Positions 1,747 to 51,411 of a stretch of DNA of 64,000 nucleotides are shown here, piece after piece. How positions within the stretch are numbered: position 1 is the first letter of the stretch; each line of letters begins with the position of its first letter. The position numbers were made by a program, and so were the translations under genes. The notes beneath the pieces were generated by a model that searched no databases, had not been told where the DNA came from, and worked only from the letters and a program-made list of their open reading frames with translations. Origin of the DNA: Roseicella sp. DB1501 (GTDB taxonomy: Bacteria; Pseudomonadota; Alphaproteobacteria; Acetobacterales; Acetobacteraceae); NCBI RefSeq assembly GCF_013112485.1, contig NZ_JABFHG010000012.1, positions 62,001-126,000 of the forward strand. Direction: 5' to 3'.

Positions 1747-2178
1747 ATGTCCGAGACCAGCGGCAAGAAGCCCGAGACCGACCTGATGCGCATGCTCTCC
1801 GAGTTTCGCCTGCCCGGCATGCCGGATGTGGAGGCGCTTGCCTCCGCCCAGCGCCGCAACCTCGAGGCGCTCTCGGCCGCCAACCGCGTGGCGCTCGAAG
1901 GGGCGCAGGCCGTGGCGCGGCGGCACATGGAGATCCTGCAGTCCTCGATGACCGAGATGACCGAGGCGATGAAGGCGCTCAGCACGCAGGAATCGCCGCA
2001 GGCCAAGGCGGCGCGCCAGGCGGAGATGCTGAAATCCGCCTATGAGAAGGCGGTCGCCAACATGAAGGAAGTGGCCGACCTCATCCAGAAGTCGAACCAG
2101 GAGGCGCTGTCCCTGCTCAACAAGCGCTTCACCGAGGCGATGGACGAGGTGAAGACGCTGATGGCGAAGAAGGGCTGA
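1747..2178 (+). CDS. Phasin family protein (granule-associated)
   Basis: A 143-aa, almost wholly helical, charged protein with the phasin pattern. An N-terminal amphipathic stretch (MRMLSEFRLPGMPDVEALAS) is followed by the motif NLEALSAANRVALEGAQAVARR at about residues 38-59, then a long heptad-like region ending in lysines. Phasins coat polyhydroxyalkanoate granules and can influence their size; some act as general surface proteins or chaperones. No PHA synthase is in the window. The gene is monocistronic in appearance, preceded by about 130 bases that include a GGAGAA ribosome-binding site. It is followed by a hairpin-rich interspersed repeat. Confidence 0.88.
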   Translation: MSETSGKKPETDLMRMLSEFRLPGMPDVEALASAQRRNLEALSAANRVALEGAQAVARRHMEILQSSMTEMTEAMKALSTQESPQAKAARQAEMLKSAYEKAVANMKEVADLIQKSNQEALSLLNKRFTEAMDEVKTLMAKKG

Positions 2179-2203
2179 TAGTTCTGGCCCTCGGATGCCG
2201 GGC

Positions 2204-2289
2204 GCGAACCTCCGGTTCGCCTGGCGTCGCGGCATAAGCTGCGGGCCCCATCCGGGGCCTCGGACCGGTTGAGGAACCAGTCCGCAGAT
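2204..2289 (+). repeat. Interspersed three-hairpin repeat, copy A
   Basis: An 86-bp element between the convergent phasin and flgN-like genes. It matches the element at 42180-42265 (reverse strand) over its full length without gaps, 67 of 86 bases identical by hand alignment. A third, longer copy is at 36994-37102. It folds into three hairpins: GCGAACC/GGTTCGC with a TCC loop, GGCCCC/GGGGCC with an ATCC loop, and GGACCGGTT/AACCAGTCC. The first stem differs from the other copy by a paired G-to-A and C-to-T change that keeps pairing. Confidence 0.8.
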
Positions 2290-2307
2290 GTAGCGGGCGG
2301 CGCGGGC

Positions 2308-4238: not shown

Positions 4239-4330
4239 GCCCGAATCAGGGACCGAAGGGCAGGCTTTGCCGGGTCGGGCGGAGAAGTTTGCCCCTGATG
4301 GGCAGGAATGGCGCGGGCCAGGAGGGCGGG

Positions 4331-4750
4331 ATGCGCGGGATCGGCGGAGTGGCGGCGGGCGGGGCCATGCGGCCCGGACGGACCGGCGGGCGTGGGGCAG
4401 GCGGCTTCACGGTCGGCCAGCCCGGGGCGGCGGCGGCCGGGCCGCACGCGGCGGGGGCGGCGGTGCCGGTCGGGCTCGGCCTGCTCGCGTTGCAGGAAGG
4501 CGGCGATGCGCCGTCGCGGGACCGCTCGGCCCGCCGCCGGGCGGAGTCGATCCTCGATGAGTTGCAGGCGCTGCAGCGCGATCTTCTGCGAGGCGGCGGC
4601 GATCCGGGGCGGCTGGAACGGCTCGCGGCCCTGCAATCAGGGGAGGAGGGGGCCGATCCCATCCTGCGACAAGCAGTGCAGGCGATCGTCCTGCGCGCCA
4701 GGGTGGAACTGGCCCGGCGCGGCTGGAACGGCTCCGTGTCAACCGCGTGA
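4331..4750 (+). CDS. fliX: Flagellar assembly regulator FliX
   Basis: A 139-aa cytoplasmic protein with the FliX layout. It has a glycine-rich N-terminus (MRGIGGVAAGG), a Pro/Ala/Gly linker, and a conserved helical C-terminal half from about residue 50 (VGLGLLALQEGG, then ILDELQALQRDLL and a final ARVELARRGW). In Caulobacter FliX couples early flagellar assembly to FlbD, the sigma-54 activator, so its position facing a sigma-54 promoter for flgI makes sense. AGGAGGG lies five bases before ATG 4331. No obvious sigma-54 element faces this gene, so it is probably transcribed by another sigma factor, as expected for an early regulator. Confidence 0.85.
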   Translation: MRGIGGVAAGGAMRPGRTGGRGAGGFTVGQPGAAAAGPHAAGAAVPVGLGLLALQEGGDAPSRDRSARRRAESILDELQALQRDLLRGGGDPGRLERLAALQSGEEGADPILRQAVQAIVLRARVELARRGWNGSVSTA

Positions 4751-4882
4751 AAAGCCGCTCGTATCAGCAATTTGCGCCTGTGTAACCCCTTGGCTTTCGG
4801 ATGGCTGCGCATGTATGGTCCGGCCAACTTCGGGGCAGGGCGTCCGCGCCCGGGCTCCGGCTGCAATGGGGTCGTCCAGACG

Positions 4883-5299
4883 ATGTTGATCACGCTGCCG
4901 CCCGATTACCGCCCGCACGATGACGAAGAGTTTATGAGTTCCCAGCAGCAGGCCTATTTCCGGCAGAAGCTGCTGCGCTGGCGCCAGGACCTGCTGCGCG
5001 AGGCGGGCGAGACGCTCGCCAGCCTCTCCGTCGGCGGCATCGCCGAGGCCGACCTGACCGACCGTGCCAGCGTCGAGACCGACCGGGCGCTCGAGCTCCG
5101 CACCCGGGACCGGGCCCGCAAGCTGATCTCCAAGATCGACCAGGCGCTCGAGCGGATCGAGACCGGGACCTACGGCTATTGCGAGGAGACGGGCGAGCCG
5201 ATCGGCCTGCGCCGCCTCGAGGCCCGGCCGATCGCCACCCTCTCCATCGAGGCGCAGGAGCGCCATGAGCGCATGGAGCGCGTGCACCGGGACGATTAG
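4883..5299 (+). CDS. dksA: RNA polymerase-binding transcription factor DksA
   Basis: A 138-aa DksA/TraR-family protein that binds the secondary channel of RNA polymerase and works with ppGpp. A coiled coil (about residues 25-95) has an acidic tip around EADLTDRAS, followed by the C-terminal globular domain GTYGYCEETGEPIG and RRLEARPIA. Of the four zinc-finger cysteines in E. coli DksA only the first remains; the others are Thr, Ser and Ala. This zinc-independent form is typical of alphaproteobacteria. ATG 4883 gives the family N-terminus (MLITLPPDYRP). The open frame extends upstream to 4772 without recognisable protein. A strong hairpin follows. Confidence 0.92.
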   Translation: MLITLPPDYRPHDDEEFMSSQQQAYFRQKLLRWRQDLLREAGETLASLSVGGIAEADLTDRASVETDRALELRTRDRARKLISKIDQALERIETGTYGYCEETGEPIGLRRLEARPIATLSIEAQERHERMERVHRDD

Positions 5300-7206: not shown

Positions 7207-7323
7207 GGCGCAATCCGGCGGCGCATCGTCACGGACGTTGCCTCCGGGGCGGCGCCGTCCTACCTCTCCGTCCGGGCCACGCCCCCCCACCGGGGCGCAT
7301 CCGCTTCTGGAAGGGAGCATCCG
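7207..7323 (+). promoter_or_regulatory. Possible structured leader of serC-serA
   Basis: The 117 bases before serC hold several inverted repeats, for example CGCCCC/GGGGCG around 7281-7300, directly ahead of the GGAAGGGAG ribosome-binding site. A conserved serC RNA motif is known upstream of serC in some alphaproteobacteria. I cannot confirm a match by eye, so this is only a candidate. Confidence 0.3.
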
Positions 7324-8501
<1,178 letters not shown>

Positions 8502-36934: not shown

Positions 36935-36993
36935 TCCAGCTTATGCCAGTGGCCTGCATGCGTGACCGCATGCGGGCCCCCCAAACGCCGGTC

Positions 36994-37102
36994 GCAGAAC
37001 CTCTGGGTTTGCTTGGCGTCGCGCCGCCAGGTGCGCCTCGCGGCGCGACCGGCGGCGGCCTCGTTCGGGGCATCGGACCGGTCAAGCGACCGGTCCGTTG
37101 AT
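36994..37102 (+). repeat. Interspersed three-hairpin repeat, copy B
   Basis: A diverged, 109-bp copy of the element at 2204-2289 and 42180-42265, lying between convergent sdhB and the peptidoglycan-binding gene. The first hairpin (GCAGAACC, TCT, GGGTTTGC) and the third hairpin (GGACCGGTC, AAGC, GACCGGTCC, 37075-37096) are kept. The middle is enlarged by about 20 bases. The third stem has a C-G pair where copy A has T-A, again keeping the fold. Confidence 0.7.
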
Positions 37103-37119
37103 AACCGGTTGCCCCGGCG

Positions 37120-42141: not shown

Positions 42142-42166
42142 CCTTCCGCGGCATTGCCGCGGAAGG
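42142..42166. terminator. Hairpin terminator after the dehydrogenase gene
   Basis: A perfect 11-bp stem (CCTTCCGCGGC, ATT, GCCGCGGAAGG) seven bases after the dehydrogenase stop is followed by TTGTG. It lies immediately beside repeat copy C. Confidence 0.75.
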
Positions 42167-42179
42167 TTGTGCGTCTCGG

Positions 42180-42265
42180 ATCAGCGGACCGGTTGCCTGA
42201 CCGGCCCGAGGCCCCGAATGGGGCCCGCGACCTGTATCGCGTCGCCGAGCAAACCGGAGGTTTGC
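42180..42265 (-). repeat. Interspersed three-hairpin repeat, copy C
   Basis: An 86-bp element in reverse orientation between the convergent dehydrogenase and MFS genes. Ungapped alignment to copy A (2204-2289) gives 67 identical bases of 86. The stems GCAAACC/GGTTTGC, GGCCCC/GGGGCC and GGGCCGGT/ACCGGTCC are preserved. Stem 1 shows a compensatory pair change relative to copy A. Confidence 0.8.
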
Positions 42266-42289
42266 GCCGCCGATCGAGGGGTGGCGATA

Positions 42290-43717
42290 TCAAACATGGA
42301 TGCCGTCGAGATCCTTGCCGGCATGCTCGGGGCTGAACCACCACACCACCGCCGCCTGGCCCAGCATGAAGACCGGGATGACGAGGAAGGCGAGGTGGAA
42401 GCTTCCGGTCGCCTCGCGGATCCAGACCGAGACGAAGGGCCAGAGCACGTAGCCGATGAAGAAGGCCAGCGCCCAGGAGAAGCCGTTGCCGACGCCGCGG
42501 ATGCGGGTCGGGTACATCTCGGCGGTGTAGGTGGTCGCCGGGCCCCAGACGCCGAGGAAGCCGATGCTCCAGAGCAGGCCGAAGATCCAGAGCAGCGTCC
42601 GGTCCTGCGAATAGATCCAGAGCGTGAGGAACAGCGCGCCCTCCGCCAGCATCAGCACGAAGGCGAGCCGCCGCCCGAGCAGGTCGGAGATCCAGCCCGC
42701 GCCGGCAATGCCGACCACGCCGATCAGGCCCCAGGCGATGTAGAAGCTGCTGTACTCGGCCGTGGTCCAGCCATGCGCCTCCTTCAGGAAGAGCGGCATC
42801 CAGAGCCCGACGGTCGAGAAGGCGATGAGGTTGGTGACGGCGACGAAGGTCGCCAGGATGGTGTTGCGGCGCATATCCGGCAGGAAGAGCTGGCGCAGCC
42901 CCACCTTGTCGGCCTTGCCGAACCACTGTCGGTCCTCCTCGCTGATCGTCTGGCCGGACGCGAGTTCGGCGCGGATGCGCTGCTTGCGGTCGGTGGTGCG
43001 CACCCAATAGGGCGATTCCGGGCAGAGGAAGCGGACATAGACCGCCAGCAGCGCCACCACCGCCGGCAGCACGAAGGCGCCGCGCCAGCCCCATTGCCCG
43101 ACGACGAGGGCGGTGATGGTGCCGGCCAGCGCCGCGCCGACGCCCCAGGCGGCGCGGTTGCTGCTGACGATGCGGGCGCGCAGCCGCGCCGGCCAGGTCT
43201 CGGCCACCAGCATGGAGCCGATCGCCCATTCGCCGTTGAGGGCGAAGCGGACGATGGAATAGGCGGCGACGAAGAACCCCCAGGTAGGCGCGAGCGCCAC
43301 CAGCGGCATCATCAGCGAGAACATGGCGATGTTGATGGCCAGCAGCGTGCGCCGGCCGAAGCGGTCCGCCAGCCAGGGCCAGAGATAAAGGCCGATGATG
43401 CCGACCAGCATCGCGATCTGCACGCCGGTGCGGTATTCCGGCAGGGTGACGGCGAACTCCGCCATCACCAGCGGCGCGACGAGGGAGAAGATCGCCCCGT
43501 CCATGCCGTCGAAGCCCCAGCCCAGGCCATTCGCCCAGGCGATGTGCCAATGCGTCTTGGTCAGCTTCTCCTGCTGCGCCGCGTTGCGATAGGCCTGCGA
43601 GCGCAGGTGCCGCTCCTCGAGCGGACCGGCGGCGGGGGGAAGGCCTGCATCGCCTGCGAATAGTTCGCCGGCTACCGGTTTGCGCGGCGAGGCGCCGCCG
43701 AGCGTTGTCGAACTCAT
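42290..43717 (-). CDS. MFS transporter, sialate/shikimate-type (AAHS/MHS-like)
   Basis: A 475-aa 12-helix major facilitator protein. Its hydrophilic N-terminus of about 50 residues precedes the first helix (WHIAWANGLGWGFDGMDGAIF, with the Asp typical of organic-acid carriers). The A-loop motif is DRFGRRTLLAIN (about 112-123). The long central loop at about 240-280 is cytoplasmic. It likely imports a carboxylate or aromatic acid; the substrate is not predictable. GAGGAGGAGAG lies upstream of ATG 43717. It is convergent with the dehydrogenase gene, separated by repeat copy C. Confidence 0.88.
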   Translation of the reverse strand: MSSTTLGGASPRKPVAGELFAGDAGLPPAAGPLEERHLRSQAYRNAAQQEKLTKTHWHIAWANGLGWGFDGMDGAIFSLVAPLVMAEFAVTLPEYRTGVQIAMLVGIIGLYLWPWLADRFGRRTLLAINIAMFSLMMPLVALAPTWGFFVAAYSIVRFALNGEWAIGSMLVAETWPARLRARIVSSNRAAWGVGAALAGTITALVVGQWGWRGAFVLPAVVALLAVYVRFLCPESPYWVRTTDRKQRIRAELASGQTISEEDRQWFGKADKVGLRQLFLPDMRRNTILATFVAVTNLIAFSTVGLWMPLFLKEAHGWTTAEYSSFYIAWGLIGVVGIAGAGWISDLLGRRLAFVLMLAEGALFLTLWIYSQDRTLLWIFGLLWSIGFLGVWGPATTYTAEMYPTRIRGVGNGFSWALAFFIGYVLWPFVSVWIREATGSFHLAFLVIPVFMLGQAAVVWWFSPEHAGKDLDGIHV

Positions 43718-50199: not shown

Positions 50200-51411
50200 T
50201 CACACGGAGGAGAGGACCGCCGGCGCCAGGCCGGGATGCCGGGCCGCGGCATGGGCCGGGTTGCGGAAGCGCAGCTCGCCCTCCGGCACCGCATCCGGCG
50301 CTGCCGCGCTGAACATCTCGAAGCGCGAGGCGCAGGTGACGGCCACCACCCGCCGCGCCGCCGGGGCGGTGAGAAACCGGCGGACCGCGCCCTCGAGCTC
50401 GAGATGCTCGCCCCGCAACGTGCGCCAGTCGGCGCGGTCGAGATCGTCGAGGAACATGGCCAGGATGCCGGGATGGGCGCCGGTCAGGCGATGCTCCGCC
50501 GCCGTGGCGGCGCGCCGGCAGACTGCCGCGGCGATCTCGTTCTCCCGTCCCGCCCGCGCCGCCATGGCGAAGACGCTGCCGCCATCCCGGCCGGTGGTGA
50601 CGGCGAGATGCGCCTCATGCCCGAACAGGGCCCGCAGCCGCGCCGGCAGGCCGCCCGGCATGTCCTGCATCTGCGCGCCCGCGAGCATCAGCGGGTCGAG
50701 CTTCAGCACCGCCTGCGCGCCGGCATCCTGGCGCCGCTCGGCGCTCAGCAGCCCGCTGATCCGGCGCTGCAGCTCGGCGAGCTGATCGGGGCCGGAGATG
50801 CCCTCGGGCAGCGTCATCTTCAGCAGGTAGCGGCCGGGATGCGCCGCCAGCCAGGTCTGCAATTCCGGATCGATGGCGTCGACCAGCGTCCACCAGTCGC
50901 CGCGATGCACCGGCCGGCCCTCCTCGGCCGAGACGGTCTCGCAGACCACCTCGGCCGTTGCGCCGTCGCGCTCGGCCAGCATGTCGTAGAAGGCGCCCTC
51001 GGCCAGCCCGTCGAAGCGCAGGGTAAAGCCGTGCTGGCGCAGCCGGGCCGCGGTGCGGAGCAGATGGAAGAGCGGGATCAGCGTCGCCGGGCCGGTGAGC
51101 CCGGCCAGGATCAGGTCCTGCAGCTTGCGCCGGCCGGCGGGCGGCAGCGCTTCGGCCAGCACCACCGCTTCCTGCGCCAGCAGGCAAAGGCGGCGTTCGG
51201 CGAGCGTCGCCCGCCCGGCCAGCCGGCCATCGGCGATGCGCGAGAGGGCGAGTTCGAGGGCATGCCGCTGCTGCGCCGCCCGTCCGGAGCGGGAGCCGGG
51301 CTGCGCCCGCAGGCCGAGCTCCGCGACGCGCGCCAGCCATTGATCCTCGCCGCAAAGCGAAATGAAGCCGTTGAGCGCGGGAATATCCGCGGGCGGACCA
51401 GCGAAGGGCAT
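50200..51411 (-). CDS. Hypothetical protein, 403 aa, weak nuclease-like motif
   Basis: I do not recognise a named family. The protein is soluble, Ala/Leu/Arg-rich, with no signal peptide or membrane helix. A mid-region block (about 152-180) reads AEVVCETVSAEEGRPVHR after GAFYDMLAERDG. This spacing recalls the E-x-K-T and GRxxHR pattern in some PD-(D/E)xK nuclease-like proteins, but the usual Lys is Glu here. That would abolish activity if the match is real. Codon use is like its neighbours. It lies between a small gene and chorismate synthase, in the same direction as aroC; the 150-base gap argues for its own promoter. Confidence 0.7.
   Translation of the reverse strand: MPFAGPPADIPALNGFISLCGEDQWLARVAELGLRAQPGSRSGRAAQQRHALELALSRIADGRLAGRATLAERRLCLLAQEAVVLAEALPPAGRRKLQDLILAGLTGPATLIPLFHLLRTAARLRQHGFTLRFDGLAEGAFYDMLAERDGATAEVVCETVSAEEGRPVHRGDWWTLVDAIDPELQTWLAAHPGRYLLKMTLPEGISGPDQLAELQRRISGLLSAERRQDAGAQAVLKLDPLMLAGAQMQDMPGGLPARLRALFGHEAHLAVTTGRDGGSVFAMAARAGRENEIAAAVCRRAATAAEHRLTGAHPGILAMFLDDLDRADWRTLRGEHLELEGAVRRFLTAPAARRVVAVTCASRFEMFSAAAPDAVPEGELRFRNPAHAAARHPGLAPAVLSSV

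Follow-up and report, generated by a model that had tools for sequence, protein, structure and literature searches.

Multi-hairpin elements dispersed behind genes in Roseicella and its relatives carry TNA target duplications and very probably form a MITE-type family

Bacterial MITEs such as RUP, NEMIS/Correia and ERIC are shorter than 200 bp, encode no protein, have terminal inverted repeats (TIRs) and a target duplication, lie between genes and are foldable, as set out in the available parts of PMC2229807 and PMC10969869; most of them have TA ends, are A+T-rich and fold by pairing of their two ends (PMC2229807, in its available part). Two other families are treated in the same part of PMC2229807: the CcrM-associated intergenic repeats (CIR) of alpha-Proteobacteria, ≈110 bp long with two side-by-side arms and a conserved GANTC, and YPAL/RU-2 of Yersinia, ≈168 bp long, not A+T-rich, palindromic and intergenic, with duplications of 3–26 bp at dyad symmetries. 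REPs belong mostly to the GTAG or CGTC families and are single palindromes of 20–40 bp with a tag; according to the available part of PMC3733652, CGTC REPs predominate in alpha-Proteobacteria and have no known transposase, and Acetobacteraceae are among the groups missing them. The IS1031 group of IS5 targets TNA and makes exclusively a 3-bp repeat (available part of PMC12016507).

Here, we describe a hairpin family found in a window of 64,000 nucleotides from Roseicella sp. DB1501 (Acetobacteraceae), bases 62001–126000 of contig 4 in a genome of 5.99 Mb and 47 contigs. An earlier note had reported three copies of a hairpin repeat in this window, and we find that copies A (2204–2289, plus strand) and C (42180–42265, minus strand) indeed share 67 of 86 bases without gaps, the runner-up ungapped match of copy A inside the window reaching 44 of 86. 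With genes called by a purpose-written caller that uses in-frame hexamer scores, the reported placement between the stops of convergent genes also holds for all three copies (flanking stops at 2178/2308, 36934/37120 and 42135/42290 for A, B and C, respectively). The elements are, however, larger than the spans first marked (Table 1), and copies A and C start directly at the upstream stop codon, with copy B beginning 9 nt past it. The left end of copy A adjoins TGA, its right end reads CCGCAGATG at 2282–2290, where the consensus has CCGTTGGTA, and its right flank, TAG at 2291–2293, no longer equals the TGA on the left. Copy B ends in TGCCAGTGG and CCGTTGATA, and its unequal flanks, TTA and ACC, leave no duplication; copy C adjoins on its left the TGA stop of a minus-strand gene (TCA on the plus strand, 42290–42292) and has an unequal right flank, CGA.

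Table 1. Copies of the element in the window, with their hairpins and the stop codon adjoining copy A
Feature	Position	Strand	Basis
Copy A, whole element, short form, 112 bp	2179..2290	+	Covariance model match 2173-2295, 123.7 bits
TGA ending gene 1747-2178 (stop codon), also the inferred left copy of the target duplication	2176..2178	+	Gene calls, junction listing
Copy A hairpin 1	2197..2225	+	Fold; covariation across 31 copies
Copy A hairpin 2, two pairs most variable between copies	2228..2243	+	Fold; covariation
Copy A hairpin 3	2244..2259	+	Fold; covariation
Copy A hairpin 4, beside right end	2261..2284	+	Fold
Copy B, whole element, long form (extra 5′ hairpin, longer hairpin 2)	36944..37103	+	Covariance model match 36963-37108, 76.5 bits; end scores
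Copy B hairpin 1	36985..37019	+	Fold
Copy B hairpin 2, extended form	37022..37057	+	Fold
Copy B hairpin 3	37058..37071	+	Fold
Copy B hairpin 4	37074..37097	+	Fold
Copy C, whole element, short form, 111 bp	42179..42289	-	Covariance model match 42174-42295, 106 bits
Copy C hairpin 1	42242..42273	-	Fold
Copy C hairpin 2	42226..42241	-	Fold
Copy C hairpin 3	42210..42225	-	Fold
Copy C hairpin 4	42185..42208	-	Fold

Copy A is common to the source genome and G003, a genome of the same genus, and copies B and C have no G003 counterpart in the same gap; a hairpin similar to the GATCCCGATCAGGTG..CGCCTGATCGGG type occupies the site of copy C there. A perfect G+C-rich hairpin (CCTTCCGCGGC ATT GCCGCGGAAGG, 42142–42166), possibly a terminator in itself, still stands beside copy C in the window, so that this gap kept its own hairpin despite the element. 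A search of the whole window against Rfam gives nothing at gathering score at the copies; for the region of copy A, up to E 10, three matches are returned (E 1.1 to 6.3), all outside 2179–2290 except that one of the three, at 2133–2180, touches the element by two bases. Elsewhere in the window, at 7270–7323 (plus strand), lies a serC leader RNA (RF00517, 39.7 bits), 5′ of the gene starting at 7324.

Single-strand folding gives four hairpins per copy rather than the three first reported, with a longer second hairpin in copy B, and the fold energy of each copy lies below those of all 200 dinucleotide shuffles (z = −3.90, −4.30 and −3.65). The stem pair swaps seen earlier are confirmed, G-C to A-T in the first stem and T-A to C-G in the last, and at two pairs of hairpin 4 where copy A has T-A, its G003 orthologue has C-G. 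The short-form consensus, drawn by eye, runs from the left as TNA / TAYCRAYGGCCCTCAGACGCC GGGC GCAAACC TCC GGTTTGC TTGGC TTC GCGGC ATAA GCCGC G and continues to the right as GGCCCC GTTC GGGGCC TC GGACCGGTC NNNN GACCGGTCC GTTGGTA / TNA, with terminal inverted repeats (consensus TRCCRRCGG ... CCGYYGGYA) that are supported by a scan for ends only; long forms have an additional hairpin between the left end and CCTCAG. The hairpin slots are interchangeable: slot 2 is enlarged in some copies, copy B being one, slot 3 holds either GGCCCC/GGGGCC or GCGCCC/GGGCGC, and slot 4 holds GGACCGGTC/GACCGGTCC, GGCATGAATG/CATTCATGCC or GGCCC/GGGCC. Whole copies of 138–149 bp in Neoroseomonas eburnea (L045, L115 and L120, for example) have their first hairpin flush with the left end, and one copy on contig 4 of the source genome (L145:14046–14257, contig positions 180046–180257) has its hairpin 2 split by another hairpin sequence of the GATCCCGATCAGGTG..CGCCTGATCGGG type. 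Whole copies range from ≈110 to 194 bp, with ≈70% G+C and four to five side-by-side hairpins; a low-scoring open reading frame (scores 3–7) covers the centre in only 3 of 41 matches, and this short element carries no gene.

The earlier note had expected that a covariance model would find many copies in the genome and its relatives, and this is what we observe. A blastn search of the source genome with copy A gives at least 41 matches including itself, with 40 of 130 first-look candidates scored and a best other match at E 3.7e-24. From an alignment of 31 copies (L002–L029 and the three window copies, with L030 left out), in which 94.1% of the stem pair cells are paired compared to 90.6% after shuffling, and 38 cells show changes on both sides compared to 12.6 (0 of 500 shuffles reach 38), we built a covariance model of 123 positions and 31 pairs. 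Across the whole source genome this model matches at least 148 places at E ≤ 1 and at least 139 at E ≤ 0.001; since 150 candidates were scored, the total may exceed 139. What had been named as evidence against a family, a lack of further copies or a random placement of copies without conserved stems, is not what we observe.

Among 39 genomes taken as relatives, the source genome counted, 11 have matches at E ≤ 0.01, three of these 11 lying outside the bacterial family, and a survey of 200 genomes of the family, with stricter filters and no more than 17 matches scored per genome, finds matches at E ≤ 1e-5 in 38 genomes (again with the source genome counted) and 21 of 102 genera. A 30-base pattern of hairpin 1 hits 95 sequence stretches from named genomes; most belong to Neoroseomonas and other Roseomonas-like genera, and others to Magnetospirillum, uncultured Rhodospirillaceae and one Erythrobacter. 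The element is thus patchy in one bacterial family and some relatives; neither its consensus nor one whole Neoroseomonas copy matches the plasmid collection, and that same copy has no match in the phage collection. Contig 46 of the source genome holds a tandem array of two copies repeating every 112 bp (50773–51006), which has three copies in G003 (L166:10752–11079) and is absent in G001, and the same contig carries other dispersed repeats of ≈100–130 bp (L159:11405–11618 and L159:1115–1245), with many copies in G003 and G002; one of these has arms GGACCATGATCCG..CGGATCATGGTCC, and both are unmatched by the model of the element.

The earlier reading of these sequences as a small mobile family finds strong support in target duplications, empty sites and a recent burst of near-identical copies. 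The burst is seen in G054, a genome of the same bacterial family, which holds at least 17 such copies, the 17 scored being 16 of 157 bp and one of 145 bp; the 157-bp copies differ pairwise by a mean of 2.7 and at most 10 positions, the ends read TACCAACGCG and CGAGTTGGTA, and the flanks of the 17 look unrelated by eye. An exact 3-bp TNA duplication brackets all 17 scored copies (TCA 5, TTA 5, TGA 4, TAA 3), although the copies were chosen without imposing TNA. The end pattern preceded by TNA occurs at 87 ends in G054, at none in the reversed control and at none in G138, the copies of which must have other end letters; 27 of 28 pairs of facing ends picked in G054 share the same TNA on both sides, which chance would give in ≈1 of 4, and they mostly fall at two spacings, ≈149–150 and 113–114 bases between pattern starts. 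Unpaired ends at contig ends of G054 were considered as traces of a longer IS, and two of the three tested lie inside a 157-bp copy. At the end of G054 contig 141 (L287), an element matches the 157-bp sequence over ≈35 nt from its left end and diverges beyond that point; it may be a damaged copy or mark the boundary of a longer element.

The same signal is detectable among older copies, many of which no longer have equal flanks. In 2.44 Mb of DNA, much of it selected for carrying the element, the scan for ends finds equal flanking 3-mers in 27 of 321 pairs lying 100–219 bp apart, 18 of these 3-mers being TCA, TGA or TTA, compared to 26 of 1111 pairs in eight other distance bins, with four TNA; equal 4-mers flank 7 of 269 end pairs and are G+C-rich and, by eye, foreign to the element. 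Among copies of the source genome and G003, 63 of 80 could be used after 17 without a clear right end had been dropped, and in 13 of these 63 the 3-mer at the right end recurs beside a good left end, compared to 5.4 ± 1.9 on permutation (1 of 3000 reaches this), two of the 13 being a single insertion common to both species; the remaining 50 fail the equal-flank criterion. Empty sites are readable on both sides at two loci. At C2:127479 the source genome reads GACACC-TGA-[element]-T-TGA-GAGG, with one extra T before the right TGA, where G003 reads GACACC-TGA-CAGG, and at L197:6730 of G003 the element is bracketed by TCA where the source genome has one TCA; for two further G003 copies (L200:15583 and L191:13662), only the left flank of the empty site finds a match in the source genome. 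By eye, 8 of 14 copies of the source genome with a comparable orthologous gap have no counterpart in G003, as do 11 of 18 G003 copies in the reverse comparison, and nine pairs at shared sites pass an automatic criterion. Dispersal, defined ends, the 3-bp TNA duplication, empty sites and a recent burst are all directly observed.

The placement of the copies follows largely from where TNA falls. TNA covers exactly four trinucleotides, TAA and TGA, which are stop codons, and TTA and TCA, which are the same two stops on the opposite strand, so that insertion there regenerates a stop on either strand. Of the gaps of at least 20 nt in 837 kb of the source genome, the element is present in 14 of the 89 that are convergent, in 22 of the 328 tandem ones and in 1 of the 112 divergent ones, and the convergent enrichment expected earlier is real (Fisher p = 0.011 for convergent against tandem and 0.013 for divergent against tandem). 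Counted per gene 3′ end, occupancy is 14 of 178 (7.9%) for convergent and 22 of 328 (6.7%) for tandem gaps, near-equal rates which indicate that the unit is the stop codon or the 3′ end rather than convergence. Considering 125 copies of the source genome and G003 together, 116 lie in convergent or tandem gaps, six in divergent gaps and three inside called genes. A stop codon is found at the junction, within set distance windows, in 66 of the 116, with 23 of these 66 depending on a window of 14–21 nt intended for the long form; random TNA in the same residual gaps predicts 54.3 ± 4.1. In G054, a stop codon falls exactly at the junction in 11 of 17 copies, none of them in a divergent gap, compared to a random expectation of 8.1 ± 1.3 (P = 0.03). 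These expectations come close to the observed counts, so that most of the pattern is accounted for by TNA in short 3′ gaps, with a modest remainder unexplained. TAG, which is not a TNA target, makes up 6 of 67 junction stops, perhaps by later change. The distances from the 5′ side to the stop peak at a single value (22 of 91), and orientation relative to the genes is free: of 125 copies, 91 have a stop facing their 5′ side and 79 have one facing their 3′ side.

We therefore propose, with high confidence for the family as a whole, a high-copy, MITE-type, non-autonomous and protein-free family of ≈110–194 bp that inserts at TNA with duplication and restores stop codons. A transposase acting in trans would insert the element into a TNA trinucleotide and duplicate it; where that TNA is an ochre or opal stop on either strand, the insertion would preserve both the reading frame and a stop at the junction, and the gene should stay readable. 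Selection against insertions in coding sequences and promoters would then leave copies at or behind gene 3′ ends, with convergent gaps hit most often because each contains two stops; purifying selection is probably behind the deficit in divergent gaps. It had also been suggested that convergent gaps without the element hold simple perfect hairpins. Such hairpins do occur, but in a minority of these gaps (18 of 75 with a perfect stem of at least 8 bp, among gaps of at least 20 nt in the 837 kb), and a test of whether the element replaces existing terminators shows no difference, another stem of this length being retained in 3 of 14 element-bearing convergent gaps.

The alternative that survives best, though we regard it as unlikely, is that the hairpins form a structured RNA, either a bidirectional terminator without T-runs or a stabiliser of mRNA 3′ ends, which spread as a useful sequence and is kept at 3′ ends by selection. 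The strong multi-hairpin folds and the 3′-end placement, with its near-empty divergent gaps, are consistent with this, as are nine compensated stem pairs at the nine shared sites, where re-dealing the 3′ letters within each locus yields 0.66 (0 of 5000 shuffles reach the observed number), and a single case, the site of copy B, where G004 has by eye a hairpin plus a T-run in place of the element. These pairs are spread 2, 4, 1, 1 and 1 over five of the nine loci and exceed what simple neutral decay predicts; the stems are kept by paired changes. Template-switch correction of imperfect palindromes, or conversion by other copies, can also yield paired changes, and covariation among dispersed copies alone is no proof of RNA function. 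At the same nine sites, on the other hand, 35 stem changes are one-sided; in 21 of these the pair is lost in one species, and in 14 pairing is kept. Of 126 aligned copies, which represent 125 places, three have a TTTT close to the 3′ end and none has an AAAA close to the 5′ end, and a scan of copy A for an intrinsic-terminator pattern finds none. G-U and A-C mismatches are equally frequent in these 126 copies (84 and 85), giving no sign of selection on the RNA of one strand and fitting change at the DNA level or neutral change. The free orientation, the many sites not common to congeners and the persistence of other stems in element-bearing gaps at much the same frequency as elsewhere also argue against an RNA origin. 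The role as a bidirectional terminator or RNA stabiliser put forward in the earlier note is possible, with rare T-runs and the lack of strand asymmetry against it and the compensated changes in its favour, and the hairpins may have some effect on mRNA 3′ ends. A bolder and doubtful extension, which we offer tentatively, is that the identity of TNA with stop codons makes these positions a genetic safe harbour, and that the family has become a distributed system of 3′-end processing or termination in part of the bacterial family; if true, a gene that is hit would be given a ready-made multi-hairpin 3′ UTR of interchangeable modules, with resident copies kept paired by selection.

A highly improbable alternative is that these are REP/BIME elements mobilised by a RAYT (Y1 HUH) transposase. 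High-copy extragenic palindromes in free orientation, and the tandem array of two copies in the source genome and three in G003, would fit such a mechanism. However, the source genome has no match to Y1/RAYT (PF01797) in a search that is positive in 5 of 14 control genomes, and among 14 element-bearing genomes two have a match; moreover, IS200-type transposition creates no target duplication, and equal 3-bp flanks surround all 17 young copies of G054. Mobilisation by RAYT is ruled out as far as a resident RAYT is required. The MITE-type family that we favour would be mobilised by a DDE (IS5-like) transposase acting in trans, to which the target habit points. The source genome has nine PF13340 and 13 PF01609 matches, which coincide at some loci. 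One IS5-like element, on contig 27 at 4259–5197 (L247, L256), is 939 bp long with 16-bp perfect ends, GAGCCCTTCCGGAAAG, and a TGA duplication. None of the 22 PF13340/PF01609 loci combines the ends of the element with equal TNA flanks, so it is target habit alone that suggests the mobiliser. The long-form end pattern gives two matches in the source genome, both known copies; wide end pairs in the sampled DNA comprise one facing pair whose flanks differ and six pairs bracketed by equal TNA but otherwise unremarkable, and no partner IS ends are present in the 16 small G054 contigs sampled. The partner IS of a MITE is often lost, and a partner with shared ends is not required for MITE status.

The last alternative, that the stop-codon copies never inserted, either because the element developed where it stands or because gene calling created the stops, is scarcely credible. 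In its favour, stops often fall exactly at the junction and our gene caller is home-made; against it, the empty orthologous sites carry the same trinucleotide and the G054 copies show unrelated flanks and exact duplications that are read without gene calls, which together refute it.

Insertion of one mobile family would thus explain a class of hairpins found behind genes in these bacteria, and by a simple placement rule: an element that targets TNA finds TAA and TGA on either strand, and its own duplication repairs them. The fresh burst in G054 provides a natural experiment on the transposase, on insertion preference and on how a single hairpin array affects the 3′ ends of many different genes.

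Our literature search found no title or abstract opening that describes this hairpin family, which is no proof of absence from print, as subscription papers were outside its scope, and the available parts of PMC10969869 and PMC2267715 contain nothing matching the element. Comparison with the described systems places it closest to MITEs, with which it shares a length below 200 bp, the absence of a protein, TIRs, a target duplication, intergenic location and foldability; short and gene-free, it has terminal inverted repeats, a duplication of fixed length (3 bp) and presence or absence at orthologous sites, and a same-ended partner IS was found neither at the 22 loci of the source genome nor among wide pairs or the 16 G054 contigs. 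Unlike most MITEs, it is ≈70% G+C, consists of four to five hairpins in a row and duplicates TNA. With the IS1031 group it has in common the TNA target and 3-bp duplication, but the ends of that group (GAGCCC.., or GAACCTGTCTAG.. in ISLrh, in the available part of PMC12016507) differ from its TRCC.., and no common ends were found. High copy number, hairpins and extragenic location make "REP-like", the term used in the earlier note, acceptable as a loose description; membership is not supported by the distribution of Y1/RAYT given above or by a multi-hairpin unit of ≈110–194 bp with TIRs and a 3-bp duplication, in which no GTAG- or CGTC-tagged palindrome of 20–40 bp is seen by eye. CIR resembles the element in length (≈110 bp), in its alpha-Proteobacterial hosts and in having side-by-side arms instead of an end-to-end stem, but has two arms, and any GANTC occurs in just 7 of 126 aligned copies of the element. 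YPAL/RU-2 resembles it in size, in not being A+T-rich, and in being palindromic, intergenic and flanked by a target duplication, and differs in its duplications of 3–26 bp at dyad symmetries, its host group and its internal inverted repeats. We class the element as a new MITE family, unusual in its multi-hairpin build and tidy in its stop-codon rule.
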